A stretch of DNA of 57,345 bases from Pseudomonadota bacterium (GTDB lineage Bacteria > Desulfobacterota > Syntrophorhabdia > Syntrophorhabdales > Syntrophorhabdaceae). The notes below the pieces were generated by a model. It ran no database searches. It was not told where the DNA came from and saw only the letters and a list, made by a program, of their open reading frames with translations. The position numbers and the translations under genes are program-made. Every line of letters begins with the position of its first letter. Within the stretch, counting starts at the first letter, position 1. Positions 15,949 to 38,571 of the stretch are shown in pieces. The stretch is from assembly GCA_026388275.1 (NCBI GenBank), contig JAPLKB010000052.1, positions 1 through 57,345 on the forward strand. The letters are read 5' to 3'.

Positions 15949-16315
15949 AACTGTTCTGGTTATTGATGATGATGTACACATCAGGCGAATTATCGAGCTT
16001 AAGTTGACAAGAAGCGGATACCGCGTTCTTACTGCCCCGGACGGTGTGGACGGCTTGGAACTGGTTTATAGCATGAAGCCCGATGTTGTGATCACAGACA
16101 TCAATATGCCGAGACTCAACGGGGAAGCTTTGTGCAGAAAGACGAACCTATTAAAAAAGGAAACCAGTTTCCTGACGGTTGTCATGACGGCCCGGATCAA
16201 CCCCGAGGATCAAAACTGGCTGGCGGAAATGGATGATACGCGCTTCTTCGAGAAGCCCTTCAGTCCGACGCGTTTGGTTGCCTGTATAGACGAATATTTC
16301 CTCAATGTGAGCTGA
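15932..16315 (+). CDS. Stand-alone receiver-domain response regulator
   Basis: A CheY-like receiver of about 127 aa with no output domain. The acidic pair is in TVLVIDDDVHIRRI, the phospho-acceptor Asp is D56 in DVVITDINMPRLNG, the switch Thr is in VVMTAR, and the conserved Lys is in FFEKPFSP. Tandem TTG codons at 15932 and 15935 are the only sensible starts, following ggagg at 15921; the gene overlaps the kinase end by 17 bp. It probably relays phosphate from that kinase to a protein target, perhaps the HD-GYP or STAS protein just downstream (inference). Confidence 0.88.
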   Translation: MLAKPKTVLVIDDDVHIRRIIELKLTRSGYRVLTAPDGVDGLELVYSMKPDVVITDINMPRLNGEALCRKTNLLKKETSFLTVVMTARINPEDQNWLAEMDDTRFFEKPFSPTRLVACIDEYFLNVS

Positions 16316-16320
16316 AAGCA

Positions 16321-17826
16321 ATGGAGCGATTCAAAGACTTATTGAAGAATTTTTCGGAGATCTCCCAGGTCTACTTTGCAATAGGCGATGGGAACGAGCT
16401 TATGGTGACTGTTCAACCTGAACAGAATAACGGTCATTTTCAAGAATCCATAAGGAGGTTCTCCGCAGGAGTTCTCGATGGGGATAGATTAAAGTCCGGG
16501 CTAATGGGCCAATATGACATTTACGGCATACCAGTAAAGACAGGCGACTCCTCGGCTGTTGCTCTTATTGCATACAAAGGCAAGGATTCGGACCAGGTCA
16601 ATGGCTCTGAGCCTGAGAAAATGAGAAACCTTGTCCATGGCTTGGCTGGGATAATGGAAGACTATTATGCTGCCCGGAGAGAATCAGAGGAGTTAGCCGA
16701 TGAATTGGCTCAGGGATTTGAGACAATATCCCTTTACTCCCGAATCACTCCTCAGATCACGGCTTTCGGCTTTTCCGATAATATGCTTAGTAGCCTTACC
16801 CAGGATCTCCTTGAAACAATGCGGGCGGACCTTGTTTTCACGAATATATCTGCGCGGGAAAGATACAACCAACTGGCGGTAAACGGGCGTTTTTCAGGGG
16901 GAGTGGCAGATTTGCGGAGATTCATTGAAAACCTTATTGATGCTATTCCCTCAGATGCTTCAAGCTTGAAAAACAAGTATTTCGTTGTCAATGATTCTAA
17001 ATCCGATGGGGCCTATGAAAAACTTCATCAGGTACCGTACCGCTTTCTGGCAGCTTCGATTGAACACCAGAGTAATTTTTATGGCTGGCTCGGTGTAGTA
17101 TCCTTTAACATGGAAGAAATCTTTCGTCTCAGTGAACTGAGAATGTTGACTACCGTGGCGAAACAGATAGCAATTACCTTATCCAACATCGACCTTTACA
17201 ATGAACTGGACCGGTTTGTTGTCAATGTCGTCAGATCCCTCGTCTATGCCATTGAGGCCAAAGACACATATACAATGGGTCATTCGGAAAGGGTAAATCA
17301 GTACTGTATGAAAATGGCCTACAAACTTCGTCTGAGCAAAGAGGAAAGGAGGACCCTGTTCTGGTCGTCCATTCTGCATGACGTGGGCAAAATAGGAATT
17401 TCCGAAAGAGTACTGAATAAGCCTGGGTCCCTGACGGATGAAGAATACGAGGAGATCAAGACACACCCGGAGAAGGGTTATAAAATTCTCAATCCCTTGA
17501 ATCAGTTGCAGGAATCTCTCCAGGCTATCCTCCACCATCATGAGCGGTATGACGGGACAGGATATCCGGGCAGGCTTAAAGAAAATGAGATTCCCCTGCA
17601 ATCCCGGATTATTGCAGTGGCCGATACCTTCGATGCTATCACGTCCGATCGATCCTACCGCTCTCACAAAACGGCCGAGCAAGCTTTAGCCATTTTGGAT
17701 GACGTGGCAGGCAGGCAGCTTGACCCTGAAATAGTTCAGGTATTCAAAACCGTGTATGATAACGGAATTGTGTCTGAGACCGATGAAATTCTTTTCGAAG
17801 AGATGAGACAGGGTAAGGCAAAATGA
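16321..17826 (+). CDS. HD-GYP domain phosphodiesterase
   Basis: A 501-aa protein. The first ~300 residues resemble a degenerate sensory/GAF-like region without clear motifs. The C-terminal part is a full HD-GYP domain: MGHSERVNQYCMKMAYKL, H353-D354 in ILHDVGKIG, HHERYDGTGYPG with the GYP triplet at 414-416, and VADTFDAITSDRSYR. Such enzymes hydrolyse cyclic di-GMP. It begins 5 bp after the receiver gene and its stop overlaps the STAS gene start (ATGA). That places c-di-GMP turnover in the same transcript as the secretion ATPase. Confidence 0.9.
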   Translation: MERFKDLLKNFSEISQVYFAIGDGNELMVTVQPEQNNGHFQESIRRFSAGVLDGDRLKSGLMGQYDIYGIPVKTGDSSAVALIAYKGKDSDQVNGSEPEKMRNLVHGLAGIMEDYYAARRESEELADELAQGFETISLYSRITPQITAFGFSDNMLSSLTQDLLETMRADLVFTNISARERYNQLAVNGRFSGGVADLRRFIENLIDAIPSDASSLKNKYFVVNDSKSDGAYEKLHQVPYRFLAASIEHQSNFYGWLGVVSFNMEEIFRLSELRMLTTVAKQIAITLSNIDLYNELDRFVVNVVRSLVYAIEAKDTYTMGHSERVNQYCMKMAYKLRLSKEERRTLFWSSILHDVGKIGISERVLNKPGSLTDEEYEEIKTHPEKGYKILNPLNQLQESLQAILHHHERYDGTGYPGRLKENEIPLQSRIIAVADTFDAITSDRSYRSHKTAEQALAILDDVAGRQLDPEIVQVFKTVYDNGIVSETDEILFEEMRQGKAK

Positions 17827-18170
17827 CATCACCAAAAATTCAGACGACGACGGTCGGCATCAATGTGGTTGTGACAATAAAAGAATCCCTGACATTTAAG
17901 ACCTGTGAAGAGCTGGAAACGATATTTAATCAGCTGATCAGGCAAAACAAAAACAGAATTGTGCTTGAATTCGGAGATGTAAACTTTATGGACAGTCAGG
18001 CTCTGGAACTCTTATTAACTATGCACGAGTCGTTGATGAATTCCGGTGGAATTCTAAAAATATTCGGTCTGAACGGGGTCTGTCGCGATATTCTTGTTAC
18101 GACCCGGCTGATCAATCTTCTTAACATATATTGGGATATGCAGGAAGCACTCCGAGAGGAGTCTCCATGA
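17823..18170 (+). CDS. STAS-domain protein (anti-sigma factor antagonist-like)
   Basis: A 115-aa single-domain STAS protein. The core strand and helix read NRIVLEFGDVNFMDSQALEL, where the serine in MDSQAL is at the position phosphorylated in SpoIIAA-type proteins. It overlaps the HD-GYP gene at its start and the GspE-like gene at its end (both ATGA). It may be a phospho-switch binding a kinase or the ATPase; no anti-sigma kinase gene is nearby, so the partner is unknown. Confidence 0.83.
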   Translation: MTSPKIQTTTVGINVVVTIKESLTFKTCEELETIFNQLIRQNKNRIVLEFGDVNFMDSQALELLLTMHESLMNSGGILKIFGLNGVCRDILVTTRLINLLNIYWDMQEALREESP

Positions 18171-19876
18171 CCTTTCGTTTCCCCACAAGAAAGAAGCTTG
18201 GAGAAATTCTTGTAAGACGGGGAACTATAACCCCCGAGCAGATGAACGAGTATCTCCGGATGCAGAAGGAGGTCAAAAAACCTCTGGGAGAACTACTTGT
18301 CGAGCAGGGGGTAATAACGAGCCAGGAACTGACGGGATTTCTCGGGGAACAGCTCGGAATTCCCCATGTGTGGCTGCGAAAGGGCCTCGTTGATCCCAGG
18401 ATAGTACATATCGTTCCAAAAGAGAAAGCTTCTCAGTTCCAGGTGGTTCCCATGTTCCGCGTGAGAAACATATTAACCTTGGCCACTGCAGACCCGCACG
18501 CCATCTTTGTGTTTGATGAAATAGCCAAAATTACGGGATTGAAAGTCCAGCCGGTTCTTTGCCGTTCTGATGATATTCTGGAAGCAATTCGCGAATGCTA
18601 CAATGAAGAGGTGAGCATCGATGAGGTGATGACCAGCATCGATGAAGCGGCCATTGAGGTGGTCCGGTCCTCACCGGAACGGGCTGTCAGTGAAATAGCA
18701 GAAATGGCGGAAGGGAGCCCCGTCATCAAGCTGACGAACATGATCATCATGAAGGCCATACGAGACGGCGCAAGCGATATCCACATCGAACCGCAGGTTG
18801 ATCAGTTCCGGGTCAGAATCAGGATCGACGGACTCCTGTATGAGCTTATGTCGCCTAAACAGGAGATGCATCCAGCCATTGTTTCAAGGTTGAAGGTTAT
18901 GGCCAATCTCGATATTTCAGAAAGGCGGATTCCTCAAGATGGCCGAATTCAAGTGATGCTTGACGGGAATACCATCGACCTGCGGTTTTCCTCATTACCC
19001 TCCATTCATGGTGAAAAAATTGTCTTAAGAATTCTCGATCAGAGGAAAGCGATACTGGACATTAACAAGCTAGGTTTTGAAGAGGATATTCTGACGAGGT
19101 TCAAGTCTCTTTTGAAGCGGCCTCATGGCTTGGTTCTGGTTTGTGGCCCCACAGGAAGCGGTAAGACTTCTACACTCTATTCGGCAATATCTCTCCTCAA
19201 CACGCAAGAGAAAAACATTGTCACGATTGAAGACCCGGTGGAGTATCAACTTAAAGGCGTCAACCAGAATCAGGTAAGGGAAGCTATAGGCCTGACATTT
19301 GCTAAGTTCTTGAAACATACCCTGCGTCAGGACCCGGACATCATTCTCGTTGGTGAAATCAGAGACCGTGAGACAGCGGAGATTGCTATTCAGGCTTCCC
19401 TTACCGGCCACCTGGTGCTCTCCACAATACATACAAATGACAGCATCAGCGTAATTACACGCCTTCTCGAAATGGGTATAGAACCGTATCTTATTTCTTC
19501 CGCCCTTCTTGCCTCCATGTCACAGCGTCTGGTCAGGATGACATGCCGGGACTGCGAAACCGGCTATTTTCCTCCGGCCACGGTGCTTAAAGAGCTGGGC
19601 GTTGATGAAGGTAAGCAGATGAGACTGTCAAAAGGCAAAGGGTGTGCCAGTTGTTATGATTCAGGATATAAGGGACGGACGGCTATTTACGAGCTTCTGG
19701 AAATGGATGATGGATTGCAGGCCCTGATTCTGAGCAACCCCACTACCGATGCCCTGCGGCGGTATACCAGAGAAAAGGGTTTCAAGACGCTGAAGCAGGA
19801 TGGCTACAGAAAGGTCTTGCAGGGTATAACGACCATTGAAGAGGTCGCGCGGGCAGCTTCTACGGAAACATGGTGA
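18167..19876 (+). CDS. gspE: Type II secretion/type IV pilus assembly ATPase (GspE/PilB family)
   Basis: A 569-aa hexameric ATPase that powers pseudopilus extension at the inner membrane. The N-terminus has two MshEN-like motifs (KLGEILVRRGTITPEQMNEY and PLGELLVEQGVITSQELTGF), the type that binds c-di-GMP in MshE. The core has Walker A GPTGSGKTS (327-335), Walker B IILVGEIRD, and a zinc site of two CXXC pairs (460/463 and 493/496). ATG 18167 overlaps the STAS stop; a longer in-frame start lies inside that gene. It is followed by gspF. Confidence 0.93.
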   Translation: MTFRFPTRKKLGEILVRRGTITPEQMNEYLRMQKEVKKPLGELLVEQGVITSQELTGFLGEQLGIPHVWLRKGLVDPRIVHIVPKEKASQFQVVPMFRVRNILTLATADPHAIFVFDEIAKITGLKVQPVLCRSDDILEAIRECYNEEVSIDEVMTSIDEAAIEVVRSSPERAVSEIAEMAEGSPVIKLTNMIIMKAIRDGASDIHIEPQVDQFRVRIRIDGLLYELMSPKQEMHPAIVSRLKVMANLDISERRIPQDGRIQVMLDGNTIDLRFSSLPSIHGEKIVLRILDQRKAILDINKLGFEEDILTRFKSLLKRPHGLVLVCGPTGSGKTSTLYSAISLLNTQEKNIVTIEDPVEYQLKGVNQNQVREAIGLTFAKFLKHTLRQDPDIILVGEIRDRETAEIAIQASLTGHLVLSTIHTNDSISVITRLLEMGIEPYLISSALLASMSQRLVRMTCRDCETGYFPPATVLKELGVDEGKQMRLSKGKGCASCYDSGYKGRTAIYELLEMDDGLQALILSNPTTDALRRYTREKGFKTLKQDGYRKVLQGITTIEEVARAASTETW

Positions 19877-19889
19877 GGGGGAAACCTCT

Positions 19890-21035
19890 ATGGCAATTAC
19901 TCTGACGCGAAGCACCCCTGCTCCTGCAGTAAATGGAGCGACGGGATCCTCGGCGGCTTCAACCGCTTGGAAGAAGAGCCTCTTTAGCGTTTTTAGCAAG
20001 CCCGTCAGTACGAGCGAACTGATTTTTTTCAATTCCCAGCTTTCACTCATGATGGAAATAGGCATATCTCTGCCAAACGCTCTGAGAGCTGTTAGCGATC
20101 AGACTAACAATGCTGCATTCCAGGAAATAGTTCTCGCCATGCTCAAAGATCTTGAGGAAGGGAAACAGTTATCGGATGCCATGAACAGCTATCCCGAAAT
20201 ATTCAGTGCCGTTTATGTCAGTATGGTAAGGGCGGGAGAAGCGGGTGGCTTTTTGAAGAAAACCCTTGACGGTATTATCGTAATGCAAGAAAAAAGACAG
20301 GCCCTCATTGCCCAGTTACGTTCAGCTCTCACCTACCCGGTCATGCTTTCTATTATGTCTATTGCAGTCATAATTTTTGTCCTGGTGGGAATTCTGCCAA
20401 AATTTGCCGTGCTGTTTTCAGGCAAGGAGACTCTCCTGCCTTGGACCACGAAGTTCCTGATAGCTGCCAGTAATTCTCTCAGGGGATACTGGTGGGGATA
20501 TATCGCCGGCATCGCCGCAATTTGTACAGGTTTTTACTGCATCCTTCGTACCTCCTGGGCGCAGTCGTTTATTGACCGGGTTCTTGTGACCGCTCCCATT
20601 ATCGGGAAGCTGACGAATAAGATATATACCTGCCAGTTGTTGAGGACAATTGGTCACCTGCTTGAAAGCAGTGTTACCATCGTGGACGCTTTGGCTGTGA
20701 CAGGAGCCACATTCAGAAATCGTTATTATGTCGAATTTGTAGATCAATTGAGGCAGCATGTTGTGGAGGGGGGGCAGTTCTCCCGTCTCTTTGCCACTAA
20801 TCCCTACATAATGGAATCGGTGAAGCAGATGATCCATACAGGCGAAGAAGTGGGAGATCTCCCGCGGGTGATGCTACGTCTGGCTCACTTCTATGACGGT
20901 GAAGTGGAGCGGGAACTGAAGACCGTAGGCTCATTGATTGAGCCTCTGGCTTTGGTGTTTCTCGGGGTGGTGGTTGCCATCATTGTTTCCTCGGTGATCC
21001 TGCCAGTTTTCAGAATAGCCGGCGCTGTTCAATGA
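19890..21035 (+). CDS. gspF: Type II secretion/type IV pilus inner-membrane platform protein (GspF/PilC family)
   Basis: A 381-aa protein with the duplicated GspF domain: first copy near ELIFFNSQLSLMMEIGISLP with YVSMVRAGEAGGFL, second copy near LLRTIGHLLESSVTIVDAL with MIHTGEEVGDLPRVM. Three membrane helices are visible, the last near the C-terminus (LALVFLGVVVAIIVSSVIL). It anchors the ATPase and pseudopilus base. The start ATG 19890 follows gaggggg; the frame is open further upstream into gspE without a better start. Confidence 0.92.
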   Translation: MAITLTRSTPAPAVNGATGSSAASTAWKKSLFSVFSKPVSTSELIFFNSQLSLMMEIGISLPNALRAVSDQTNNAAFQEIVLAMLKDLEEGKQLSDAMNSYPEIFSAVYVSMVRAGEAGGFLKKTLDGIIVMQEKRQALIAQLRSALTYPVMLSIMSIAVIIFVLVGILPKFAVLFSGKETLLPWTTKFLIAASNSLRGYWWGYIAGIAAICTGFYCILRTSWAQSFIDRVLVTAPIIGKLTNKIYTCQLLRTIGHLLESSVTIVDALAVTGATFRNRYYVEFVDQLRQHVVEGGQFSRLFATNPYIMESVKQMIHTGEEVGDLPRVMLRLAHFYDGEVERELKTVGSLIEPLALVFLGVVVAIIVSSVILPVFRIAGAVQ

Positions 21036-21191: not shown

Positions 21192-21758
21192 ATGACAAAA
21201 TGCAGGGATCAGTTCTACAAGGTAAAGGATCAGGGAGGGTTTACTCTTCTGGAAATGTTAATAGCGATCGTTATCCTCGGAATTCTCGCAGCTATCATCA
21301 TTCCGCAAATCACCACGTCATCCGATGATGCCAAGGTTAGTGCAACCAAGTCCAATCTGGCAGCTATGCGGGGCGCAATCGAGCAATACTATGTGCAGCA
21401 CAATCAAACATATCCCGGTGCCAAGGATAATGCCGGGGTTGCTACCACAGACCCCACGGTCTGCGCAACGGCTTTCGTGGATCAGTTGGCAAAATACTCA
21501 CAGGCTGACGGCAAAGCAGCTTCCGACCAGGCAAGTCTGACCGCGCCTATCTTCGGACCTTACATGAAGGGTGCGGCATTGCCGGTCAATTCCTTCAGCA
21601 ATCTGGCTACAATTGCCTGTGATACCACTACCACTGACATTACCACGAGGACTGTAGGCGGCGGAACAGGCTGGAAATTCAACGTCAAGACTGGCGTATT
21701 GTTCGCCAACGATGGTGGCAGCACTGGTTCACCGTCAGTTGCACATAAGGATTATTAG
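21192..21758 (+). CDS. gspG: Major pseudopilin-like protein (GspG/PilA type)
   Basis: A 188-aa protein with a class III prepilin signal: a ~16-residue leader ending QGG, then FTLLEMLIAIVILGILAAII with the invariant Glu at +5. The mature part has a long hydrophobic helix and a C-terminal domain rich in Thr, Asp and Gly (YVQHNQTYPGA early on). It is longer than the usual 130-150 aa GspG. Being first of five pseudopilin-like genes and preceded by the strongest ribosome-binding site, it is the probable major subunit. No prepilin peptidase gene is in the window. Confidence 0.88.
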   Translation: MTKCRDQFYKVKDQGGFTLLEMLIAIVILGILAAIIIPQITTSSDDAKVSATKSNLAAMRGAIEQYYVQHNQTYPGAKDNAGVATTDPTVCATAFVDQLAKYSQADGKAASDQASLTAPIFGPYMKGAALPVNSFSNLATIACDTTTTDITTRTVGGGTGWKFNVKTGVLFANDGGSTGSPSVAHKDY

Positions 21759-21839: not shown

Positions 21840-22394
21840 GTGAAGAACTCTCTCCCATGCAAACTGTTTATTGACAGAAAAGGGGTAATACTCCTTGATC
21901 TTCTCATAGTGGCAATAATTCTGGCTATCCTGGGAATGGTTGCAATACCCATTTTTTCCTCCTTTATTGCTGACAATAAATTAGAAGGATCGGCGGGAGA
22001 ATTGGTGGCCGGTCTACAGTATGCCGGAAATCTGGCAGTGCAGTATCAGAGACCCTTCGGTCTTTGTGCCGATGTGGCAGGGAACTGGTTCAAGGTCTTT
22101 GATACGAGTCCTTCGCCAAACCCGACGCCCCCGGCAAGACCGGACAATATACCTCCCGTTGACGAGAATGGTATCGTACTCAATCCATTTGACAAGACCT
22201 GGTATGTAAAGGACTTTGACACGATGGACATCTATAAGGGAGTTCAGATCACTTCGATTCCTTCGGGGGGTACGGTTCAATTCTATCCCGACGGCCATTC
22301 CGGTTTTACTGACAGCGTTTTTTCAATCAGCTATGGAGGAAAGCAGAAGACCATAACGGTAAACGGCACAACAGGTCTGATTACGGTGCAGTGA
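21840..22394 (+). CDS. Minor pseudopilin-like protein (GspH-like)
   Basis: A 184-aa protein beginning at GTG 21840. The prepilin-like segment reads KGVILLDLLIVAIILAILGM, so cleavage after Gly would leave Val at +1 and Asp, not Glu, at +5. The body has GELVAGLQYAGNLAVQYQRP, the region following the first helix that resembles GspH/FimT proteins. Its stop overlaps the next gene. Substitution of the invariant Glu could affect its place in the pseudopilus. Confidence 0.78.
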   Translation: MKNSLPCKLFIDRKGVILLDLLIVAIILAILGMVAIPIFSSFIADNKLEGSAGELVAGLQYAGNLAVQYQRPFGLCADVAGNWFKVFDTSPSPNPTPPARPDNIPPVDENGIVLNPFDKTWYVKDFDTMDIYKGVQITSIPSGGTVQFYPDGHSGFTDSVFSISYGGKQKTITVNGTTGLITVQ

Positions 22395-22849
22395 TGTCGA
22401 GGACGGCAACAGGAATGAAAAGAAGAGTCCCTGATCCATTTGTTAAGGGTATGTCTAAGACGGCCGGCTTTACGCTCTTCGAGGTGGTTCTTGCCATCTT
22501 CATACTTCTTACAGCTATTGTCCCCATGATAAACGCCTTTGGACCCTCTCTTTTTGCCACAGTTTCCGAAGAAGCTACCATTGTCTTCACCAATTACGCG
22601 AGACAGACGCTCAACCGGGTTGCCGTTCTTGATTTCAAAATACTCAACAACCTTGTTCTGAACAATCAGGCAAACCCTGTTAATCTGAATATTCTTTTTG
22701 CAGACGGAAAAGAAGCCTTTTCCCTCAGAGGCACGAACTATATTCCGACGGTAATAATCACCGATGCCAGCGCAGGAGCCGGCGGTTTGCTTGAAATAAC
22801 TGTCACACTGAATCAGGTCGTCCTGAAGACCCTGAAGGCGGATTACTGA
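22394..22849 (+). CDS. Minor pseudopilin-like protein (GspI-like)
   Basis: A pseudopilin with AGFTLFEVVLAIFILLTAIV, Phe at +1 and Glu at +5. The frame opens at GTG 22391/ATG 22394, overlapping the previous stop, giving a ~25-residue leader. An ATG at 22451 would give the compact leader MSKTAG before the cleavage site and is a plausible alternative start. Total length is about 151 aa, close to GspI. No other domains are visible. Confidence 0.78.
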   Translation: MSRTATGMKRRVPDPFVKGMSKTAGFTLFEVVLAIFILLTAIVPMINAFGPSLFATVSEEATIVFTNYARQTLNRVAVLDFKILNNLVLNNQANPVNLNILFADGKEAFSLRGTNYIPTVIITDASAGAGGLLEITVTLNQVVLKTLKADY

Positions 22850-22851
22850 GA

Positions 22852-23463
22852 ATGGATATGGACCGAAAAACAGGCGGTTTCACTTTGATGGAAATGCTCA
22901 TCAGTATCGTTCTTCTCGGGATTATCATGTTCGGTCTGGAAGGGCCGCTAAGCACTGCCCTCTCCTCTTACAAGGGCACGAAGGGAAAACAGGATTTGCT
23001 CGTAAAAGCTCGTTTGGCCACAGAGCGCATGGTCATGTTCGTCCAAAAAACAGACCGAATCGAGAATCCCACAGGAACAAATGAAGAAGTTCTCAAGATC
23101 AGCGAACGACTGCTTGACACGTACAATAACAACAGCCATGCCTATATAGTCGCGGGAGACGGAAAGCTGGACGCCGACAACAATGGCGATGGAATCGTAA
23201 ATGTCGGCACCGACGATTCCGTAGAGTACATCACATATGATCTTGATAAATCTGACAGCGCCAACTGGAAACTGATGGAACAGTTGCCCGATTACAGCTC
23301 TGCCCCGAGCGGACTGCTCACGAAGAAAGTGGTCTGTGAGCATGTGACCGAGTTCAAGGTGAGTCGTTTCTCAAACAGCCTTGTCGAAATCCGTCTGTCC
23401 GTTAATGAAGGAAATACGGGCTTGAGCCTTCAAACGAGAGCGCGCGCGAGGCTCATGGAATGA
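22852..23463 (+). CDS. Minor pseudopilin-like protein (GspJ-like)
   Basis: A 203-aa protein with leader MDMDRKTGG followed by FTLMEMLISIVLLGIIMFGL, with the canonical Glu at +5. Length and the Asp-rich middle (DNNGDGIVN, a possible calcium-binding loop) fit GspJ-type minor pseudopilins. It starts 2 bp after the previous gene and ends 4 bp before the next one. Confidence 0.8.
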   Translation: MDMDRKTGGFTLMEMLISIVLLGIIMFGLEGPLSTALSSYKGTKGKQDLLVKARLATERMVMFVQKTDRIENPTGTNEEVLKISERLLDTYNNNSHAYIVAGDGKLDADNNGDGIVNVGTDDSVEYITYDLDKSDSANWKLMEQLPDYSSAPSGLLTKKVVCEHVTEFKVSRFSNSLVEIRLSVNEGNTGLSLQTRARARLME

Positions 23464-23467
23464 TGGC

Positions 23468-25834
23468 ATGAGAAACGATAAAGGATTTATCCTGATTACG
23501 CTTCTCTTCATGCTTCTTCTTCTTTCCGTTACGGCCTTTATGCTCAACTCACGTTCAGGGCTACAATCGCGGATGGCGTATAACCAGACGCAGGCTGTTC
23601 AAACGCACCTGGGCCAGGTGTCGGTCCTTGAAAAAACTATCTGGAAGTTAAACCAGAGCCCTGGATGGCGGACCCTGAATGAAAGTTTCCCTTATAATGG
23701 CACGGCTTATACCGGCACGGTCCTGGACAGTTCAGGCGTAGCAGGATACTCCGATGCTGTTACCATATCCGTAAAGGCGCCGGGAGGAGCGGGTCCTCTG
23801 AAGGAGTCGTTTCGCTACTACATGGATACACTCCCTCCCTTCATTAACAAAAAACCCTACCGTCTGAGAGCAGACGCGGCGGGTACCCTTTATTTTGCTG
23901 ACACCGACAGCAACTCAATATGGAGAATAAATGCTGCTTCAGGGGCGATCATCCGGGTGGTGGGCAATGACAACAGCGGATTCAGCGGCGACGGAGGGCA
24001 AGCAATTCTGGCCCAGTTGAACGGGCCCCAAGGTCTTTGTATCAGTTCAACCGGAGAGATGTATATTGCTGATACAAGGAATCACCGCATCAGAAAAGTA
24101 AGTTTCGGGGGTATAAGCACTTATGCCGGGAATGGCACGAACGGTTACGGCGGAGACGGTGGTTCCGCCCTGAATGCAGCCCTGTCGAACCCGAAGAGCT
24201 GTGCTGTTGATTCTACGGGAAACCTTTATATTGCCGACAGCGGCAACTGCATGATCCGTAAGATTGATGCCACCACGAAAATTATTACTCTTGTGGCAGG
24301 CAGAGTAGGCGAAGATGGACATCCTGATTGCGGTTTTAGCGAAGGTCTGGCAACCAAAGCCAAATTGAATAATCCGAGTGACCTCTACAAGACCAGTTCA
24401 GGCGATATCTATGTTGCCGACACGGAGAACAACAGGATCCGCAAATTCAAGGAAGGAGGGAATATGTCGACGGTTGCCGGTAGCGCAGGGTCGGGATATT
24501 CCGGAGACTATGGGCCGGCAACGGCGGCACTACTGAATGGTTCCGCCGGGATTTTTGTTGACTCTGCAAATAATATCTATATTGCCGATACAGGTAATCA
24601 CTGCATCAGAAAAGTCTCTGCCGAAACAGGGACCATCACCACTGTGGCTGGTACAGGATGGGCAGGGTATTACGGGGATGGTTTATTTGCATGGTGGGCT
24701 AGACTGGATAGTCCAGCTGGTGTGTATGTGAATAGTACAGGAGATATGATCATCTCGGATACGATGAACTCTACCCTCCGAAAAGTGGCAGCCTCCACCG
24801 GGATTATTTCCACTATGGCCATTACCGCCTCGTCCGGTCTGAATGCACCCCGTGGGATGGTGACCTATTATGACCGTAACGAAGGCAAAATGTACCTCTA
24901 TATCGTTGATATGAAGAATCACCGTGTCCGTAAGCTGGACATCCTGACAAACAAGCTGACGACAGTAGCCGGTACAGGAACTGCGGGTTTTTCAGGCGAT
25001 GGCGGGGCAGCGACCGGCGCCACACTCGATACACCCGGCGGCATTGCAGTGGACAGTTCGGGCAATCTCTTTATTGCCGACACCAATAACAGCAGAATCC
25101 GCAAAGTAGATTTCCTGACAGGGATCATTATAACCGTTGCAGGCAAGAACATTAGTGGTTATGATCAAGATGAACATGCAGCTACAAGTGCCAAATTAAA
25201 TAAACCTTCCGACGTTTTTGTTGATGCTTCGGGAACGTTTTTCATCGCCGACACACAGAATCATCTGATTCGCAAGGTAGATACTTCCGGTACGATTCAC
25301 ACTGTTGCAGGCACAGCCCGGATTGCGGGATATTCGGGAGATGGAGGGTCGGCAACATCGGCACAGATAAGCTCGCCGGGCGGAGTTTTCGTGGATGTTT
25401 CAGGAAATGTCTACTTTGCGGATACCGGCAATAATAGTGTACGAAAGGTAAATACCTCCGCCATTATCTCCACTGTTGCCGGAACTGGATTGGCCGGGTA
25501 CTTGGGCGACGGCGGTGCAGCCACAAGTGCGACGCTCACCAGTCCCACAGATGTGAGGGTCGACGGTTCAGGCAGTCTCTTTATCGCTGACAGCGGAAAC
25601 CATGCCGTGAGGGTTGTGACCGGCTATGATGGTAAGATCAAGACCTTTGCCGGGGTCTTTCCAAAAAGCAGCGGTTTTAACGGCGACAATCAACCTGCTG
25701 TCGCAGCAAAGATGAACGGGCCGAGCGGCGTAGTACTGTCCGGGACAAATGGAAACGGGAAGATTTACATTTCCGACACGGTCAACAACAAAATACGCGT
25801 GCTTATGCTCAGGAAAGTGAAGGAACTCTATTGA
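23468..25834 (+). CDS. GspK/PilX-like pseudopilin fused to NHL beta-propeller repeats
   Basis: A 788-aa protein. The N-terminus is a prepilin-like segment without Glu at +5 (KGFILITLLFMLLLLSVTAF), the arrangement typical of the tip subunit GspK. From about residue 130 to the end there are about twelve NHL-type repeats, each with a core like GNLYIADSGNCMIRK and then TVAGTGTAGFSGDGG. Twelve blades would make two six-bladed propellers. NHL propellers bind protein or carbohydrate ligands. Here they would be displayed at the tip of the pseudopilus, perhaps as an adhesin or substrate-recruiting module. The usual GspK middle domain is not evident. Confidence 0.85.
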   Translation: MRNDKGFILITLLFMLLLLSVTAFMLNSRSGLQSRMAYNQTQAVQTHLGQVSVLEKTIWKLNQSPGWRTLNESFPYNGTAYTGTVLDSSGVAGYSDAVTISVKAPGGAGPLKESFRYYMDTLPPFINKKPYRLRADAAGTLYFADTDSNSIWRINAASGAIIRVVGNDNSGFSGDGGQAILAQLNGPQGLCISSTGEMYIADTRNHRIRKVSFGGISTYAGNGTNGYGGDGGSALNAALSNPKSCAVDSTGNLYIADSGNCMIRKIDATTKIITLVAGRVGEDGHPDCGFSEGLATKAKLNNPSDLYKTSSGDIYVADTENNRIRKFKEGGNMSTVAGSAGSGYSGDYGPATAALLNGSAGIFVDSANNIYIADTGNHCIRKVSAETGTITTVAGTGWAGYYGDGLFAWWARLDSPAGVYVNSTGDMIISDTMNSTLRKVAASTGIISTMAITASSGLNAPRGMVTYYDRNEGKMYLYIVDMKNHRVRKLDILTNKLTTVAGTGTAGFSGDGGAATGATLDTPGGIAVDSSGNLFIADTNNSRIRKVDFLTGIIITVAGKNISGYDQDEHAATSAKLNKPSDVFVDASGTFFIADTQNHLIRKVDTSGTIHTVAGTARIAGYSGDGGSATSAQISSPGGVFVDVSGNVYFADTGNNSVRKVNTSAIISTVAGTGLAGYLGDGGAATSATLTSPTDVRVDGSGSLFIADSGNHAVRVVTGYDGKIKTFAGVFPKSSGFNGDNQPAVAAKMNGPSGVVLSGTNGNGKIYISDTVNNKIRVLMLRKVKELY

Positions 25835-25886: not shown

Positions 25887-26981
25887 ATGATATTCGACAT
25901 TGAGTCACGCTATCCCATCGGTATCGACATCGGTGCAAAATATATTGCTGCGGCACAGTTGCGTGACGAAAAGGGAAAGAAGGTCCTTCGTGGCTTACAT
26001 TACAGGAAGCTTGATGCAGGCACTGAAAACGATGATATTCTCGTTTCTGCCCTGAGAGAAATCACAAAGAGCAAGGTCTTTGCAGGCCGCCGGGTAGTAC
26101 TGAGTATCCCGTCAAAAAATCTATCCATTTTTCCTATCCATTTTCAGATAGAGAAGACAGGCTCACTTGAAGAAGCTATTCTCAGAGAATCGGAAAAATA
26201 TCTTCCTTTTCCTCTTGAGGATGCTGTTATCGACTACCCTTCTCTCCTGTCGGAGGAGAGCGGTGATTTCAACCAATATAAGGCTTTAATTGTGGCAGCC
26301 CGGCGTGAGGACCTGAAGAAGTACATGGCTCTCCTGAAAGATGCAGGTTTGCACGTTGACGTATTCGATTTTTCCGTGTCGGCCCTGATCCGCTTGCATT
26401 ACTATCTTTATCAGAAGGGGCCGAATCCCGTTATCCTCGGCCATATCGGCCTTTCAAAAAGCCTCTTTGCAGTTGCTTCCCAGGAAAGTATCGTTGTTCA
26501 ACGCGATGTAGGTTGGGGCTCAGAGGTCATGCTTGAAGAATTTCTATCCAGTATTGATATTTCCCACGATAACGGCAGTGCGAAGGCGATTTTGAAGCGG
26601 CATGGGCTTTCCTATGAGGACCATGATCCTGCTAAAGCCGATCAGGAGAAAGATTCAGACACAATCGGTATAGAGCGTGCCGTTTATCAGATTATCACAC
26701 CTCACATTGATGAGTTTCTCCACGAAATGGATAAAGGCATAAGTTACGCAAGGGTTGAAGCACGAAGCCCTGAGTTTGAAGGGATCTATCTCTACGGCCA
26801 GGCGGGCATTGTCTCCTCACTTGATAAATACATCGAAAGGCGAATGAACATAAGAACTGAAATTGTGAACCCTCTGGATAGAATTCCCCTGTCGGATAAG
26901 CGGCTGCTTGCTGCTATACCGGATGACGCACCCCTCGCACTGGCCCTGGGTTTATCAATGAGGAGGGTCCCCTGGCTTTAA
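25887..26981 (+). CDS. pilM: PilM/GspL-like cytoplasmic assembly protein
   Basis: A 364-aa protein of the actin-like ATPase fold: YPIGIDIGAKYIAAAQLRD at the N-terminus (phosphate-1-like loop) and ESEKYLPFPLEDAVIDY, the stretch conserved in PilM. It has no membrane helix, as in PilM and unlike full-length GspL. With the next three genes it would form the PilMNOP alignment complex linking the inner-membrane platform to the secretin. Its 3' end overlaps pilN. Confidence 0.87.
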   Translation: MIFDIESRYPIGIDIGAKYIAAAQLRDEKGKKVLRGLHYRKLDAGTENDDILVSALREITKSKVFAGRRVVLSIPSKNLSIFPIHFQIEKTGSLEEAILRESEKYLPFPLEDAVIDYPSLLSEESGDFNQYKALIVAARREDLKKYMALLKDAGLHVDVFDFSVSALIRLHYYLYQKGPNPVILGHIGLSKSLFAVASQESIVVQRDVGWGSEVMLEEFLSSIDISHDNGSAKAILKRHGLSYEDHDPAKADQEKDSDTIGIERAVYQIITPHIDEFLHEMDKGISYARVEARSPEFEGIYLYGQAGIVSSLDKYIERRMNIRTEIVNPLDRIPLSDKRLLAAIPDDAPLALALGLSMRRVPWL

Positions 26982-27562
26982 GAGAGATCAATCTCATTCC
27001 TCCTGATATTTCCTCAAACCGTGCTGTAAAAAGGCACATTGTTCTTTGGGCCGCATGTTTGATCCTCTCATTAGGCATCCTTTCCGGCCTCTTTGTGATT
27101 CATGGTTATGTAATCAATGTGCAAACGCAAACATTGAAAGAAAACAAAGATATAGCCGGTCGGTTGGCAGCCAGAAATGATGAACTGAAACGCTTACAGA
27201 GCGATCAGGAAAAACTTGATCAGAAACAATCGGCTCTCGCAGCCGTGAAATCAAAGAATCCGCCTGTCACTCAGGTTATTTCCAAATTGTCGGCCATTAT
27301 GAACGATGAAACCTGGCTGTCGCAACTGGTCATAGATCCCGGAGAGGAACAGGATAAAGAAGCCCGGCTGGTTCTCACGGGCTTTTCAATGTCTAACGAG
27401 CGCCTGGGAGATTTCTTGAGCCGATTGTCCACGGAGCGGCCCTTTAAAACAGTGGTTCTCAAATTTGCAAGCGAATCCGAAGGCGATGAGCCGGGTCAAA
27501 AGGCCACATCCGGCAAGGGCAGGATCAGGTTTCAGATCATATGTCAAATAGGCAAAGGATGA
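26972..27562 (+). CDS. pilN: PilN-like inner-membrane assembly protein, probable CTG start
   Basis: The first ATG/GTG/TTG in this frame is TTG 27059, inside the membrane helix. The reading frame extends upstream and encodes REINLIPPDISSNRAVKRHI, the conserved cytoplasmic PilN motif (INLLPP type) that binds PilM. The stretch back to the previous in-frame stop has no ATG, GTG or TTG. CTG at 26972, just after gaggaggg, is therefore the likely start. The resulting ~196-aa protein has one membrane helix, a coiled coil (LAARNDELKRLQSDQEKLDQ) and a small C-terminal domain. Overlap with pilM suggests coupling. Confidence 0.8.
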   Translation: MALREINLIPPDISSNRAVKRHIVLWAACLILSLGILSGLFVIHGYVINVQTQTLKENKDIAGRLAARNDELKRLQSDQEKLDQKQSALAAVKSKNPPVTQVISKLSAIMNDETWLSQLVIDPGEEQDKEARLVLTGFSMSNERLGDFLSRLSTERPFKTVVLKFASESEGDEPGQKATSGKGRIRFQIICQIGKG

Positions 27563-27565
27563 ACG

Positions 27566-28117
27566 ATGAAGGTAACTGTGAAGGCAATTGACAGATTCTG
27601 CCTTGCAGCAGCTATTCTGGTTCTGATATTATGTGGCTACTGGTTCTTCACCAAGAGTCTTGGACAGGAAAGGTTATATCATCAGGAAAAAGACAGCCTG
27701 ACAAAACAGGTGAATGACGTGGGGGTTGCGGAAAAGAACATAGAACGGCTGAAGGCATCCACCAGATCGACGACGGAAGAGTTAAGAACCCTGGATAGAC
27801 AGATCCCGGAAGATGCTCAGATCGGCCTGTTCCTCAAACAACTGGACGGACTGATGAAGAAAAGAGAGGTCGACCTGATTTTGGTCCAGCCCCAGCCCAT
27901 CCTCAAGGAAAAACTGTACCAGAGGATCCCCATTAAGGTGAGCTGCAAGGGACTTTTTGTCAATATTTATCATCTTCTTCAGGATTTTGACACCCTGGAT
28001 CGTTTCATTGTTGTAGATAGAATGACTTTAGGAAAAGCAGAGCGTGCAGGATATTGCCAGCTTGACTTGACTGCTCTTATTTTTATGAGAGAGTCTAAAT
28101 TATCCGCTATAAGGTAG
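27566..28117 (+). CDS. pilO: PilO-like inner-membrane assembly protein
   Basis: A 183-aa bitopic protein: membrane helix near residues 11-29 (CLAAAILVLILCGYWFF), coiled coil (~35-75), then a ferredoxin-like C-terminal domain with QIPEDAQIGLFLKQLDGLMK and HLLQDFDTLDRFIVV, the conserved PilO pattern. PilO pairs with PilN in the periplasm. It starts 3 bp after pilN. Confidence 0.87.
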   Translation: MKVTVKAIDRFCLAAAILVLILCGYWFFTKSLGQERLYHQEKDSLTKQVNDVGVAEKNIERLKASTRSTTEELRTLDRQIPEDAQIGLFLKQLDGLMKKREVDLILVQPQPILKEKLYQRIPIKVSCKGLFVNIYHLLQDFDTLDRFIVVDRMTLGKAERAGYCQLDLTALIFMRESKLSAIR

Positions 28118-28121
28118 GGTT

Positions 28122-28628
28122 ATGACCGTCAGGAAAGGTGAGAATAAACAGTTAAAAATAATCATTATAGCAGTCCTGTTGGTCATCCTTTGCATTGTCG
28201 GTTATTTCCGCTTTTTTTCTAAAAAATCTACGGGCACCATTGATGAGAAACCCTTGATTGCACCTGCTGTCTCCCCTTCTGTTGCACCGGCGAATAGTGC
28301 GTCTCCTCAAAAGACTGATACGCAGGAAGCGCTTTCGCAGACATCGGCTCCTGACATTGTCAGGGATGTTTTTGAGCCGGGAAAGTCGGCAAGATTGGCA
28401 GAAACGAAGCGTAAGGAGTCGGGAGAGATTCCGCCGCCGGTACAGCTTGTACTGAATGGCATGATTTATAGCGGGAAGAATCCCGTTGCGATTATTAACG
28501 GTCAGTTACAGCATGTTGGAGATCAGATTGGCGAGTACAGGATTATCCGCATCGGGCCAAAGGAGGTACTGTTGAAAGGGGAGGAAAGAGAAATCACATT
28601 GAGGGTTATTGATTATGGGAAGAAATAG
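28122..28628 (+). CDS. PilP/GspC-like periplasmic linker protein
   Basis: A 168-aa protein with an N-terminal membrane helix (KIIIIAVLLVILCIVGYF), a low-complexity Ser/Ala/Pro-rich linker, and a C-terminal beta domain (VQLVLNGMIYSGKNPVAIIN, then GDQIGEYRIIRIGPKEVLL) like the HR domain of GspC and the core of PilP. This domain contacts the secretin N-domains. There is no lipobox, so it is closer to GspC in topology. Its end overlaps the secretin gene. Confidence 0.83.
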   Translation: MTVRKGENKQLKIIIIAVLLVILCIVGYFRFFSKKSTGTIDEKPLIAPAVSPSVAPANSASPQKTDTQEALSQTSAPDIVRDVFEPGKSARLAETKRKESGEIPPPVQLVLNGMIYSGKNPVAIINGQLQHVGDQIGEYRIIRIGPKEVLLKGEEREITLRVIDYGKK

Positions 28629-30303
28629 ACGGATTTGTTGGATCATAGGCATAGTATTCTTTTCGATGCTCATCATCACAGGACATGCGACTGTTGCACA
28701 GGACGTGCCCGGGAAGAGCCTGCCGAGACCAAAGCCTCTCCTTCAGAATATCGAGGCCCAGCAGCATGATGATAATGTATCGATTGTCCTTACATTCAAA
28801 GGTAATCCCGAGGTCGAGAAACCCGTAATAACGAAGGACAGGATTAAGTTATATTGCAGAGACACGGAGACCAGACTTGCCCACTATCAGCCCTTCAAAA
28901 GTTTCAAGTCCTGGGTCAGGTTAAAAAAAGCGGACAACAAATTGAATATAGAGTTGGCTATTCCGCCGGATCTCCCTGTGGTTCAGTACTCTCCGCCCGA
29001 CGACTCGGGAAAGCTCATTGTTACTTTTCGTAAGACCAGTCAGGAACCTTCCAGTCCGGAGAGGAAAGAAGTTGCTACTGCCACGGACCTGCTTAGCCTT
29101 AACTTTTACGAAAGTGACATCAGACAAGTTCTCCTTGGAATAGCGATGAGCAGAAGTCTCAATGTGGTCATGTCCACGGAGGTGGTGGGAAAAGTTACCG
29201 TTAACCTCGACAAGGTGTCTCTCGACGAGGCTATTTCATCGATTGCTCTGGCAGGGGGGTTCAGTTGCAGGCAGGAAAAGGGCGTATACTTTATCTTTAA
29301 GCCGAAGGACAAACCGGACTCACAGACGGACAGACTCCAGGTGAGGGTCTTCAAACTCAATTTTGCCAGAACGGACAAGGTTCAGGAAATCCTCTCGGCC
29401 ATTCCGGGAATACGGATAGTAAGAATCCATGAAGACACAAAAACCATCGTTGTTGAAGATACGCCTGAGAACATAGCCAAAATCGAGACGATAATCAATG
29501 CCTGGGACGAATCACCGAAACAGGTCCTCATTGAAGCAACGATACTGGAAGTTCAGCTCACCGATGATATGAAATTGGGCGTGGACTGGAAGGCTGTCAT
29601 GGGGACTGTAACCCTCAATACCGGGACAAATTTCAGCGGCCCGGCGGCAAAGGGTATAGCAGGCGTAGTTACTTCAGGCGTGGGCAGCCTGCATGAGTTT
29701 ACCAGTGCTATAAACGCTTTGCAGAGTATAACAAAAGTGAATACCCTGTCAACGCCAAAAATTCTGGCAGTTCACGGGAAGCCTGCCAGAGTGCAGGTCG
29801 GCGGAAAGCAGGGCTATAAAACGACTGTGACTAATCTGGGAGTGACGACGGAGCAGATCCAGTTCCTTGACACCGGCACTATTCTGGACATAACCGCCTA
29901 TATAGGCGATGAGAATAATATCCTCCTGTCCGTGCAGCCTCAATCAAACAGCGTGGCTATCGACGCGGTAACTCAAATTCCCACGGTCAGCACAACAACA
30001 GTATCAACGACCCTGCTCGCTAAAAGCAACCAGACGGTATTCATCGGCGGCCTCATCCAGGATTCTGTTACTAATACCCGTACGATGATCCCCTTCCTTG
30101 GGAAGATTCCGGTTCTTGGACACCTTTTTGGTTATACCAACCCGAATATACAGAAAAAGGAACTCGTTGTTCTCATCACCCCTCGACTTATGGAGAATGA
30201 AATAAACCGGGCGACCGACGAAGCAGAGCAGAAGATCGAAGGAGTGGATAACCAGTACCGGAAGAAACCTCCAAGCGCGTACAGGGAGTTTTTCAAGAAT
30301 TGA
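28615..30303 (+). CDS. Secretin of type II secretion/type IV pilus type (GspD/PilQ family)
   Basis: An outer-membrane channel of 562 aa. A signal peptide (WIIGIVFFSMLIITGHATVA) is followed by an AMIN-like domain (~40-130), a secretin/TonB N-domain (LSLNFYESDIRQVLLGIAMS), a further N-domain with a VFKLNFARTDKVQEILSAI core, and the C-terminal secretin domain with the signature VFIGGLIQDSVTNTRTMIPF and LGKIPVLGHLFG. The AMIN domain favours PilQ. ATG 28615 follows gagg by 10 bp; TTG 28609 is an alternative. It closes the operon. No pilotin gene is visible. Confidence 0.9.
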   Translation: MGRNRRICWIIGIVFFSMLIITGHATVAQDVPGKSLPRPKPLLQNIEAQQHDDNVSIVLTFKGNPEVEKPVITKDRIKLYCRDTETRLAHYQPFKSFKSWVRLKKADNKLNIELAIPPDLPVVQYSPPDDSGKLIVTFRKTSQEPSSPERKEVATATDLLSLNFYESDIRQVLLGIAMSRSLNVVMSTEVVGKVTVNLDKVSLDEAISSIALAGGFSCRQEKGVYFIFKPKDKPDSQTDRLQVRVFKLNFARTDKVQEILSAIPGIRIVRIHEDTKTIVVEDTPENIAKIETIINAWDESPKQVLIEATILEVQLTDDMKLGVDWKAVMGTVTLNTGTNFSGPAAKGIAGVVTSGVGSLHEFTSAINALQSITKVNTLSTPKILAVHGKPARVQVGGKQGYKTTVTNLGVTTEQIQFLDTGTILDITAYIGDENNILLSVQPQSNSVAIDAVTQIPTVSTTTVSTTLLAKSNQTVFIGGLIQDSVTNTRTMIPFLGKIPVLGHLFGYTNPNIQKKELVVLITPRLMENEINRATDEAEQKIEGVDNQYRKKPPSAYREFFKN

Positions 30304-30604: not shown

Positions 30605-33600
30605 ATGGATAATGACCTGCCTGGATATTTGCAAAAGGTGTCTGTCGGTTTATCGGGTTATCTGGAGAAGGTTCTTCCCGCAATTTACGATGATTGGTGG
30701 CAGGATGGGGTATTATCGTCCCTTTCCTTCAATCAACGACGCCGCCTTGAGCAGCAAGGACCAAATTCCCTTTCCTCTCTGGACCTGGCTGCCCTGCTGC
30801 GCATACTGGATCAGAATTGGTATCAGGTTTCTGAAAAAAAGTGTCTTTCTCCCGAAGCCCGCCATTTCCTCAAGGAGATGCAAACAATTCGCAACCGGTG
30901 GGCACACAAAGGGACGGATGGGTTCCCAGCCGATGATATATACCGGGATTTGGACACATTGCAACGTTTTACCGTAATTATTGAAGCAAACCCTGACCTG
31001 ATTCAGCAAATAGCCACTGCAAAACGTTCCCTGCTGGTTGAACAACCTTCTCCTACCGGCGCTGCAGAAAATTCCTCCTTAGTAACAGTACAATCTGCCT
31101 CAGATATCAAAGTGGGTCACATTGTCTGCCTGAAGACTGACCCCTCTGTCCGTGGAGCTGTGATTGAGGTATTGTCGGGTGAACCCGAACCTCGTTACCG
31201 AGTCTTTGTAGATAGGGAAATCAGGGTTTTTTATGCTTCACAGATAACACCTGAAACGCAGACCGACAGTTCTTTCCATATTTTGACGAATAAACAGTTT
31301 CGTTGCTATCTCACCGCCTTACAGCTTCGCCACCCAAGTGTATCTACTCTCTACTCGATGAATTCCGCTCGTGTTGATTTCATTCCTTATCAATTTCGCC
31401 CTGTCCTCAAATTTATCCGATCCGACCGCCCTCGTTTGCTTATTGCCGATGGCGTTGGTGTGGGTAAGACCATTGAGGCTGGTTTGATCCTTCGTGAACT
31501 CCAGGCACGCCGCGACATCCGGTCGGTGCTTATAATATGTCCCCGACCCATGGTTACCGAACGTAAGTGGGAAATTGAAATGAAACGTTTCGAAGAAGAA
31601 TTCGTCCATCTGGATAGTAAAACACTGCATTATTGTATTACAGAGATGGACCGTGACGGTGTATGGCCTACCCGTTATGAAAAAGTAATCGTGCCTTATT
31701 CACTTTTTGACAAAGGCTTACTTGAAGGAACTGAACCAAAAACCCGTAGCAAAAGGAAAAAGGGACTGGAAGGTCTTGACCCGCTCCCGAAATTCGATCT
31801 TGTGATTGTTGACGAAGCCCATCATATCAGAAACGAAGCAACCTATAGTTACAAGGCTGTAAAGTTTTTCTGCGACCATGCCGAAGCTGTTGTTTTTCTC
31901 ACGGCAACCCCTATCCAGATGGGCAGCAACGATCTTTACGTATTGCTTAATGTTCTCCGTCCCGATCTCATTATTGACAAGGAAGCATTCAGACACATGT
32001 CTGAACCTAACCCCTATATTAACGAGGCTGTTGCGGCAGTTCGCAGCCAACAGCCGGGATGGACTGAGATTGCCTCCGGGGCATTGGAACAAGCAACTAA
32101 TACACCATGGGGCCATGCGATTCTTTCCGATGATCCTGAATTCAATTCAGTGCAAAATAAGCTTTTACAGGATCATTTAAGCGCAGAAGACAGGATCACC
32201 TTGATTCACAAAATAGAGTCCTTTCACACCTTTTCAGGTATTATTAACCGTACCAGAAGAAGGGATATCGGTGATTTCACTATAAGAAAACCTCAAACAG
32301 TTGAAGTGCCTTTCACAGATGAACAAAAAGAGTTGCATGACCGTATACTGGAGGTCCAGGCAGATATCTTTAGACGACTCCACGGGGACATAAATGTTCG
32401 ATTCATGATGACAACAATCTGTAGGCAGGCAGCGAGCTGTCTCTTCGGGCTGGCTCCTCTGCTTAAGGATATACTCGGCAGGCACATTGACGAACTGTTA
32501 TGGGATGAAGCCGATGATATGTATGAGCCCACTTCTGCCATAAAACCGGAAAAAATTAAAACTGAAATTTTTACAATACTGGATCTTGCGAAGAATCTTG
32601 AACCGATTGATCCTAAGCTACAAGCTCTCAAAAACATCCTCGACGGCAAACAACGGACGGCAAACAACAAAGTAATGGTTTTCAGTTGCTTTCGGCATAC
32701 GCTCAATTATCTCCATACTGCATTGCTAAATGAAGGATTCCGTGTTGGTTTGATTCATGGAGGAACGCCGGATTCTGATCGTGTTGATATGCGTGAACGT
32801 TTTGAGCGTTCTCTGGAAGACAATGATGCCTTTGATGTGCTTCTTTTTTCAGAGGTCGGGTGCGAGGGTCTGGATTACCAGTTCTGCGACTGCATCGTCA
32901 ACTATGATCTGCCTTGGAACCCGATGCGGGTGGAGCAGAGAATCGGGAGAATAGACCGAAGAGGCCAGTGCAGCGAAAGCGTGGTAATATTCAACCTTGT
33001 AACGCCTGGCACCATAGATGCAGATATTTACGAACGCTGTTTGCTTCGTATTGGTGTATTTAACAATGCCCTTGGCAGTTGCGAGGAGATACTTGGTGAA
33101 ATAGCCCATGAAATAAATAATATAGCTCAAAATTTTTTGCTTACTGAGGAAGACCGTAAAAATAAGTTCCAACAGCTTGCCGACAACAAAATCAGATTAA
33201 TACAGGAGCAGGAAGAATTGGAACAGGAACAGATTGAGCTTTTCGGTATAAGGTTGCCTGAAGATCAGTTGAAAAAGGAGATTTCCGATGCAACAAGTTT
33301 CTGGCTTTCCCAGGATTCTATACATGATCTTGTACTCTCCTATTTGCAGGAGACCCTTGGAACTGGTAAAGACTTCATTCTTGGAGAAAAGGTTCTTAAG
33401 AACCTTCGTCTTTCCCGGGAAGACCGTGACAGATTATTGAAAGACTTTCAGAGACTGCCAAAACCGACCCCTGCATTTTACCGATCCTGGGAAACATGGC
33501 TGAAAGGTGACAGCCCTTACCTTGAAGTGACCTTTGATGCTGCTGCAGCATCAGGTCATTCGAAGGCCGCTTTTATTATGCCTCTCCACCCTCTGGCAAG

Positions 33601-37195: not shown

Positions 37196-37250
37196 TATGT
37201 CCGCCAAGAAGATAATCTACTTTAAATTTTCCTAAGACGAGGAACAGACA

Positions 37251-38204: not shown

Positions 38205-38571
38205 ATCCATCATCTCGAGGAAAAAGAGAAAGGGGTCGCGCCTTGACACGGGACAGGAAAGGTGATTAGCATCGCGATTGTGGAGGGGAGAGATGTTTAA
38301 ACCGAAATATACCATAACTTCCGAAATTCCTAATAATCTCACAAAGACAGTAGAGGCAAAGGCAATGTTTGAAAACGCTTACCTCATTCCCATCCGGTCA
38401 GCATCACCATGAAAAAGATGCAGGACATCCCGGAAGTGAAGTACCCCGCGGCAATGGCAGGACAAGACCGCGCTAACTTTCTCAGAGGAAACTCCGAGGT
38501 ATTGACCCGCGGGGCAATACGCATCATCGAGGGGGTCGATCAACGGTAGATAAAAAAGGAGATGAATAGCA
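38205..38571 (+). other. Degraded segment between the SIR2-like gene and Bro-N gene
   Basis: A 367-bp stretch with the fic remnant at 38293-38412. From 38409 to 38549 a 46-codon frame overlaps it in another phase (MKKMQDIPEVKYPAAMAGQD at its start); it matches nothing I know and may be part of another broken gene. The rest shows no gene, terminator or clear repeat. Confidence 0.5.
38293..38412 (+). pseudogene. Remnant of a Fic/DOC-family gene (N-terminus only)
   Basis: Thirty-nine codons read MFKPKYTITSEIPNNLTKTV, then EAKAMFENAYLIP, close to the start of Fic-family proteins (MFKPKYTIT...NAPLIP type). The frame then loses similarity and stops. The Fic core motif HPFXXGNG is not found downstream. 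Fic proteins transfer AMP or related groups and often act as toxins. A deletion during turnover of the island is the likely cause. Confidence 0.55.

Follow-up and report, generated by a model that had tools for sequence, protein, structure and literature searches.

A minor pilin with NHL beta-propellers in the K slot of a type IV filament operon from Syntrophorhabdaceae, a probable filament-tip subunit

Gene content of the locus

The analyzed stretch of DNA (57,345 bp; hereafter, the window) belongs to a bacterium of the family Syntrophorhabdaceae. The window contains a complete operon on the plus strand with the gene order E-F-G-H-I-J-K-PilM-N-O-P-Q (Table 1), and its K slot is filled by the gene of a pilin-like protein that carries beta-propellers of the NHL family. 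This ORF starts with ATG 5 bases past the end of the GspJ-like gene and has no internal stop codon.

Table 1. Positions of the propeller pilin, its parts and the neighboring genes in the window
Feature	Position	Strand	Basis
Upstream sensor histidine kinase, also present in L053 and L055	14080-15948	+	Profile match
Response regulator	15884-16315	+	Profile match
HD-GYP-type protein, probable c-di-GMP phosphodiesterase	16321-17826	+	PF13487
STAS-domain protein	17823-18170	+	PF01740
GspE/PilB-type assembly ATPase; MshEN domain for c-di-GMP binding; start codon uncertain	18131-19876	+	Pfam; NF053729 (58.3 bits, cut-off 38)
Platform protein GspF/PilC; start codon uncertain	19836-21035	+	PF00482, two stretches
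GspG-like major pseudopilin, Glu5	21192-21758	+	Pfam, NCBIfam, residue-5 reading
GspH-like minor pilin, Asp5	21840-22394	+	PF12019, residue-5 reading
GspI/PilV-like minor pilin, Glu5	22391-22849	+	Pfam, NCBIfam, residue-5 reading
GspJ/PilW-like minor pilin, Glu5, conserved GDG..DAD..DG calcium-loop-like insert	22852-23463	+	Pfam, residue-5 reading
Modular minor pseudopilin of the K slot (788 aa) with two NHL propellers	23468-25834	+	ORF, Pfam, AlphaFold2, blade profile
Prepilin leader MRNDKG, predicted cleavage after Gly6	23468-23485	+	Sequence; cleavage inferred
Pilin module, residues 7-121: a long helix plus four strands; mature residue 5 is Thr	23486-23830	+	AlphaFold2, PDB comparison
First NHL propeller, residues about 124-454, six blades	23837-24829	+	AlphaFold2, PDB superposition, blade profile
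Second NHL propeller, residues about 455-788, six blades, VKEL(Y)-type tail	24830-25831	+	AlphaFold2, blade profile
PilM	25887-26981	+	PF11104
PilN-like protein	27059-27562	+	Position and sequence
PilO/GspM-like protein	27566-28117	+	NF040576, below cut-off
PilP/GspC-like periplasmic protein	28122-28628	+	T2SSB, weak
Secretin PilQ/GspD-like	28609-30303	+	Pfam, NCBIfam

The ATPase and the secretin of the machine were compared with NCBIfam models and their curated cut-offs. The ATPase scored 588 bits against GspE (cut-off 630) and 610 bits against PilB (cut-off 676), and the secretin scored 184 bits against GspD (cut-off 351) and 181 bits against PilQ (cut-off 284), each below the respective cut-off. 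Within the overall explanation given below, this is probably a type IV filament machine standing between type II secretion systems and type IVa pili. The MshEN domain of the ATPase, together with the gene for an HD-GYP protein a short way upstream, suggests that the machine is under c-di-GMP control. The operon of a distant relative, genome G112, is preceded by genes that resemble the kinase, HD-GYP and STAS genes when read by eye. No retraction ATPase is encoded in the operon, which speaks neither for nor against an adhesive pilus.

The host genome encodes six assembly ATPases. Because it also contains two ordinary GspK genes (T2SSK over the cut-off) on other contigs, adjoining ordinary J genes, the propeller pilin is not simply the host's way of making GspK. 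No PilY1 above the curated cut-off was found in the host genome. One frame of 1343 codons (L084, G000:C7:24580-25065) gave a sub-threshold PilY1 match (E 7e-4); it shares its contig with a fragment of a prepilin peptidase gene. Two such fragments, L072 (G000:C7:29975-30166) and L073 (G000:C55:28732-28923), have near-identical starts and are both shortened, apparently at contig ends; they are probably duplicated peptidases broken by assembly.

Several side observations concern the neighboring genes. The J pilin (22852-23463 in the window; L065 7580-8497) contains a conserved GDGxxDADxDxDG insert that resembles a calcium loop; in G112 it is expanded to a run of DxDxDG units, and the J genes adjoining the two ordinary GspK genes of the host do not have it. 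In the H-type pilin, mature residue 5 is Asp and not Glu in four of five operons with a readable H protein. Downstream of the operon, at positions 30605-39075, there is a possible defence cassette with an HEPN-Swt1/SNF2 helicase (DrmD-like), a Sacsin-domain protein (TmtA-like), a weak SIR2-like match and a PDC-S13 candidate.

Structure of the pilin module

The initial annotation, made from the sequence, had described a GspK-like pseudopilin with a prepilin-like start lacking Glu at +5 and with about twelve NHL repeats, the number that two six-bladed propellers would require. The start and the repeats were confirmed. The N-terminus reads MRNDKG/FILITLLFMLLLLSVTAF, with Gly at position -1 and Thr in place of Glu at mature position 5. 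Modeling of the full protein using AlphaFold2 (eight sequences, mean pLDDT 82.5) led to a helix at residues 4-63 and strands at 72-76, 79-86, 97-103 and 111-121, followed by 12 blades, nearly all of them four-stranded; residues of about 122-129 form the linker between the pilin module and the propellers.

When the pilin module was folded alone, the helix and the four strands were retained with moderate confidence (pLDDT 71, seven sequences). Comparison of this module with the PDB gave nine top matches, each of them a pilin or pseudopilin with Z 6.0-8.6 (among them EpsI, GspI and XcpV), the best being of the GspI type; the first unrelated row had Z 5.5. The margin is modest, and the list is consistent. 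The sequence and the models combine the features of the type IV pilin superfamily, namely a class III leader, a long N-terminal helix and a small beta-sheet.

In the window protein, no PilX_N, N_methyl or T2SSK (PF03934) match was found in Pfam at E<0.1, and the N-terminal domain did not match any family in Pfam, NCBIfam or PHROGs. PilX_N (PF14341) was above the cut-off in the divergent homologue from G112 (28.7 vs. 25.5 bits) and matched weakly in L055 (E 0.0083). An inserted helical domain of the GspK kind is not present in the AlphaFold2 models, in which only the helix 4-63 precedes the strands. Because of the missing inserted domain, the missing PF03934 match and the PilX_N score of the G112 protein, the window protein (window K) is best described, on sequence and model data, as a minor pilin that fills the K slot and belongs to the PilX/GspK class, and not as GspK. 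The term GspK-like is valid for the K slot after gspI/J-like genes and for the missing Glu5; it does not hold for the alpha domain, the family match or the GspI-type structural neighbors, nor for a machine that misses the GspE/GspD as well as the PilB/PilQ cut-offs.

NHL propellers

The C-terminal part of the protein matched NHL (PF01436, E=6.4e-59) and TEN_NHL (PF25021, E=8.2e-60) above the cut-off; PF05567, the PilY1 domain, was absent among the Pfam matches. A blade profile built from the protein itself revealed 12 consecutive repeats at residues 118-785, which fits two six-bladed propellers, as modeled. The first of them could be superposed on the solved NHL propellers of NHLRC2 and SOQ1 (Z about 43; rmsd 1.7-2.0 over about 316 residues), in agreement with a six-bladed NHL fold. 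The structural match ranges of Pizza and PknD begin near residues 116-118, which hints that the strand after the pilin module may close the second propeller.

Blade number varies among the relatives. The same profile gave 12 blades for the window and L055, 11 for L053, and, for G044, G118 and G112, about five complete blades between one partial blade and a second, closing one. The latter pattern corresponds to the usual closure of one six-bladed propeller, and a single propeller is accordingly assigned to three of the six other genomes. The VKEL(Y)-type tail is common to the fusion proteins with 11-12 blades, and blade-by-blade orthology between genomes holds only partly.

Every NHL-family match in the host genome falls within the single K gene. 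None of the 15 other NHL ORFs with a readable N-terminus, among the best matches in the phylum, has a prepilin-like start, and the matches listed from the plasmid collection are NHL proteins only, aligned from residue 128 onward.

Recurrence of the fusion in other genomes

Other prepilin-NHL fusions beside gspG/I/J genes, a search for which had been suggested by the initial annotation, were found in the same slot in six other genomes, one of them very divergent. The search with the full protein or the pilin module yielded G041, G044, G118, L053 and L055, and the carriers include Desulfobacterales, Syntrophobacterales and Deltaproteobacteria MAGs. J precedes the K gene and PilM follows it in each of the seven loci. 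Pilin-module identity among the seven genomes, which represent several families, is 40-55%, and 19% in the most divergent one. In four other genomes, the fusion is whole on single contigs (L052/L029, L053, L055 and L065); in G041 and G044 it is split at contig ends, and in G044 the two ends overlap in sequence.

A separate search with PilM as the query revealed G112, whose PilM is 24% identical to that of the window and whose pilin-NHL fusion lies between J and PilM. As this search made no use of the fusion, it provides what we consider, at the sequence level, the strongest evidence for recurrence. All five genomes of the closest PilM group carry the fusion; the next nearest PilM matches (G386, G165 and G136) come from ordinary pilMNOPQ loci that have no pilin genes close by. 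The fusion was present in 4 of 395 sampled genomes of the phylum, hence rare, and was absent from the one other species of the same genus that was examined.

Its presence at the corresponding operon position in six other genomes makes the fusion a real, conserved variant of the modular pilins already known. Neither chance nor an assembly error can be its source because it recurs in other genomes, whole on single contigs in four of them.

Residue 5 and relation to the neighboring pilins

Each operon encodes five pilins, and in all seven related operons, only the K protein has no acidic residue at mature position 5 (T, T, G, G, G, I and L). All the G, I and J proteins that were read have Glu5, including the J protein of the window (GG/FTLME), and all the H proteins have Asp or Glu. 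The minor-pilin complex at the tip of known type 4 filaments has as its cap a subunit without Glu5 (PMC10191384), and the lack of this residue is common to PilX and GspK (PMC7541494).

The distances between K pilin modules were compared with those of the neighboring proteins using Mantel tests on seven taxa. The correlation was r=0.90 with J (6 of 5040 permutations), r=0.90 with I (59 of 5040) and r=0.78 with PilM (30 of 5040); these values are partly driven by G112, without which r = 0.47-0.73. Such tracking would be as expected for parts of one machine.

Comparison with known systems

The protein consists of a pilin module, a short linker and a domain that is not specific to pili, which is the structure of a modular pilin. 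Modular pilins are a described class with more than 1,200 members and 264 architectures, which were surveyed using the motif IPR012902 (PMC8179133). Such a survey would probably miss window K because N_methyl, the Pfam counterpart of this motif, gives no match. In PilB of Streptococcus sanguinis, an adhesive module is grafted onto the pilin by a nine-residue loop (PMC8179133). PilB and PilC of this species resemble window K in having a small pilin module, a short linker and a bulky C-terminal ligand-binding module expected at the tip; however, these modules are of the vWA or lectin type, and Glu5 is present in PilB (PMC8179133).

The statement of the initial annotation that no system of this type was described proved too strong. 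PilX2 of Saccharibacteria (Nanosynbacter lyticus TM7x), described in 2025, is a minor pilin that ends in a beta-propeller and has been proposed to be an adhesin, and its deletion about halves host binding (PMC12206443). In contrast to window K, PilX2 has a single seven-bladed RCC1 propeller and is reported to have no predicted PilD signal, and it belongs to a Patescibacteria pilus and not to a secretin machine of Desulfobacterota (PMC12206443). No description of a pilin- or pseudopilin-NHL fusion was found in the open-access full-text literature.

In type IVa pili, PilX, likewise without Glu5, is topped by PilY1, a protein with a modified beta-propeller (PMC7541494); these are, however, two proteins, of which PilY1 is not a pilin, whereas window K unites a pilin and NHL propellers in one chain. 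ComZ of Thermus thermophilus, a large minor pilin too, has an extra domain rich in beta structure (PMC8179133), but this domain is a beta-solenoid inserted into the pilin sheet, and DNA binding has been proposed for it. GspK/XcpX of type II secretion is, like window K, encoded by the fifth pilin gene after J, has no Glu5, carries an extra domain and is a proposed tip. GspK has calcium sites, binds calcium (PMC6211770) and has an inserted helical domain (PMC8179133); this alpha-helical domain lies in the pilin sheet, whereas the propellers of window K follow the sheet. The alpha domain of GspK is missing in window K, and the J protein of the operon has the calcium-loop-like insert.

Proposed function and alternative explanations

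The explanation that we favor, and regard as reasonably probable, is that a modular minor pilin, occupying the K position (that of GspK/PilX), caps the filament and presents the propellers as a binding head. The prepilin peptidase (PilD) would remove the leader, and the pilin module would join the I, J and H minor pilins in the initiation complex at the start of assembly. Because it has no acidic residue 5, the K protein would be the first subunit, located at the distal end and capping the filament, and its one or two propellers would be carried in front, reaching the secretin or passing through it. As propellers often serve as binding scaffolds, the head would probably bind a surface, another cell or an exported protein, and the job of PilX and PilY1 would be done by a single chain. 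Leader cleavage, tip location, exposure and binding are what we infer for this protein, with an adhesin or ligand-binding tip as its most likely function; extracellular adhesion or ligand capture is preferred over periplasmic recruitment of secretion substrates.

A more far-reaching proposal is that the operon represents a distinct subtype of filament machine, neither a type II secretion system nor a type IVa pilus, in which K is a PilX-type cap with one or two NHL propellers, J has the calcium-loop-like insert, control is by c-di-GMP, and a six- or twelve-bladed receptor is displayed at the tip. We consider this proposal tentative.

The machine could instead be a secretion system in which the propellers bind periplasmic exoproteins and push them through the secretin, as has been proposed for the GspK-containing tip of the type II system. 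The G-H-I-J-K gene order with a GspH-family member fits this explanation, and the tip complex of the type II system has been described as critical for substrate recognition and binding (PMC6211770). However, the base is of the PilM/N/O/P/Q type, the ATPase and the secretin score about equally on the pilus and secretion models without passing either cut-off, and no candidate substrate was found. Recruitment of secretion substrates is rather unlikely, but it is the one alternative that carries appreciable weight.

It is very unlikely that the protein is a membrane-anchored or periplasmic accessory, such as a plug or a sensor, and not a filament subunit. The N-terminal motif without Glu5 and without an N_methyl match would suit such a role, in which the N-terminus is a plain anchor, the alternative that the initial annotation had set against its own reading. 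A plain anchor was rejected on the basis of the pilin-fold match in the PDB comparison and the operon context, with the gene directly following gspI/J-like genes in 7 of 7 loci. The Gly -1 motif, the continuous 60-residue helix, the four-stranded sheet with its pseudopilin matches and the PilX_N score of G112 also argue against an accessory, the fusion operons encode no other K subunit, and the missing Glu5 is itself a hallmark of the K position.

A lineage-specific fusion or assembly artefact without function, for which only the rarity of the fusion speaks, is scarcely credible given the same slot in seven genomes of several families at the identities given above, the frames open without stops and the overlapping contig ends in G044; an assembly artefact is ruled out by the recurrence on the single contigs L052, L053, L055 and L065.

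These results bear on what the tips of type II pseudopili and related filaments touch. The probable tip subunit described here, the K-slot pilin, carries a recognizable binding scaffold in one chain, with one- and two-propeller versions, which makes ligand binding testable on a soluble domain. The comparison suggests that a beta-propeller at the tip of a filament has seemingly been reached in several ways, namely as the separate protein PilY1, as the RCC1 propeller on PilX2 of Saccharibacteria and as the NHL propellers on the K pilin.
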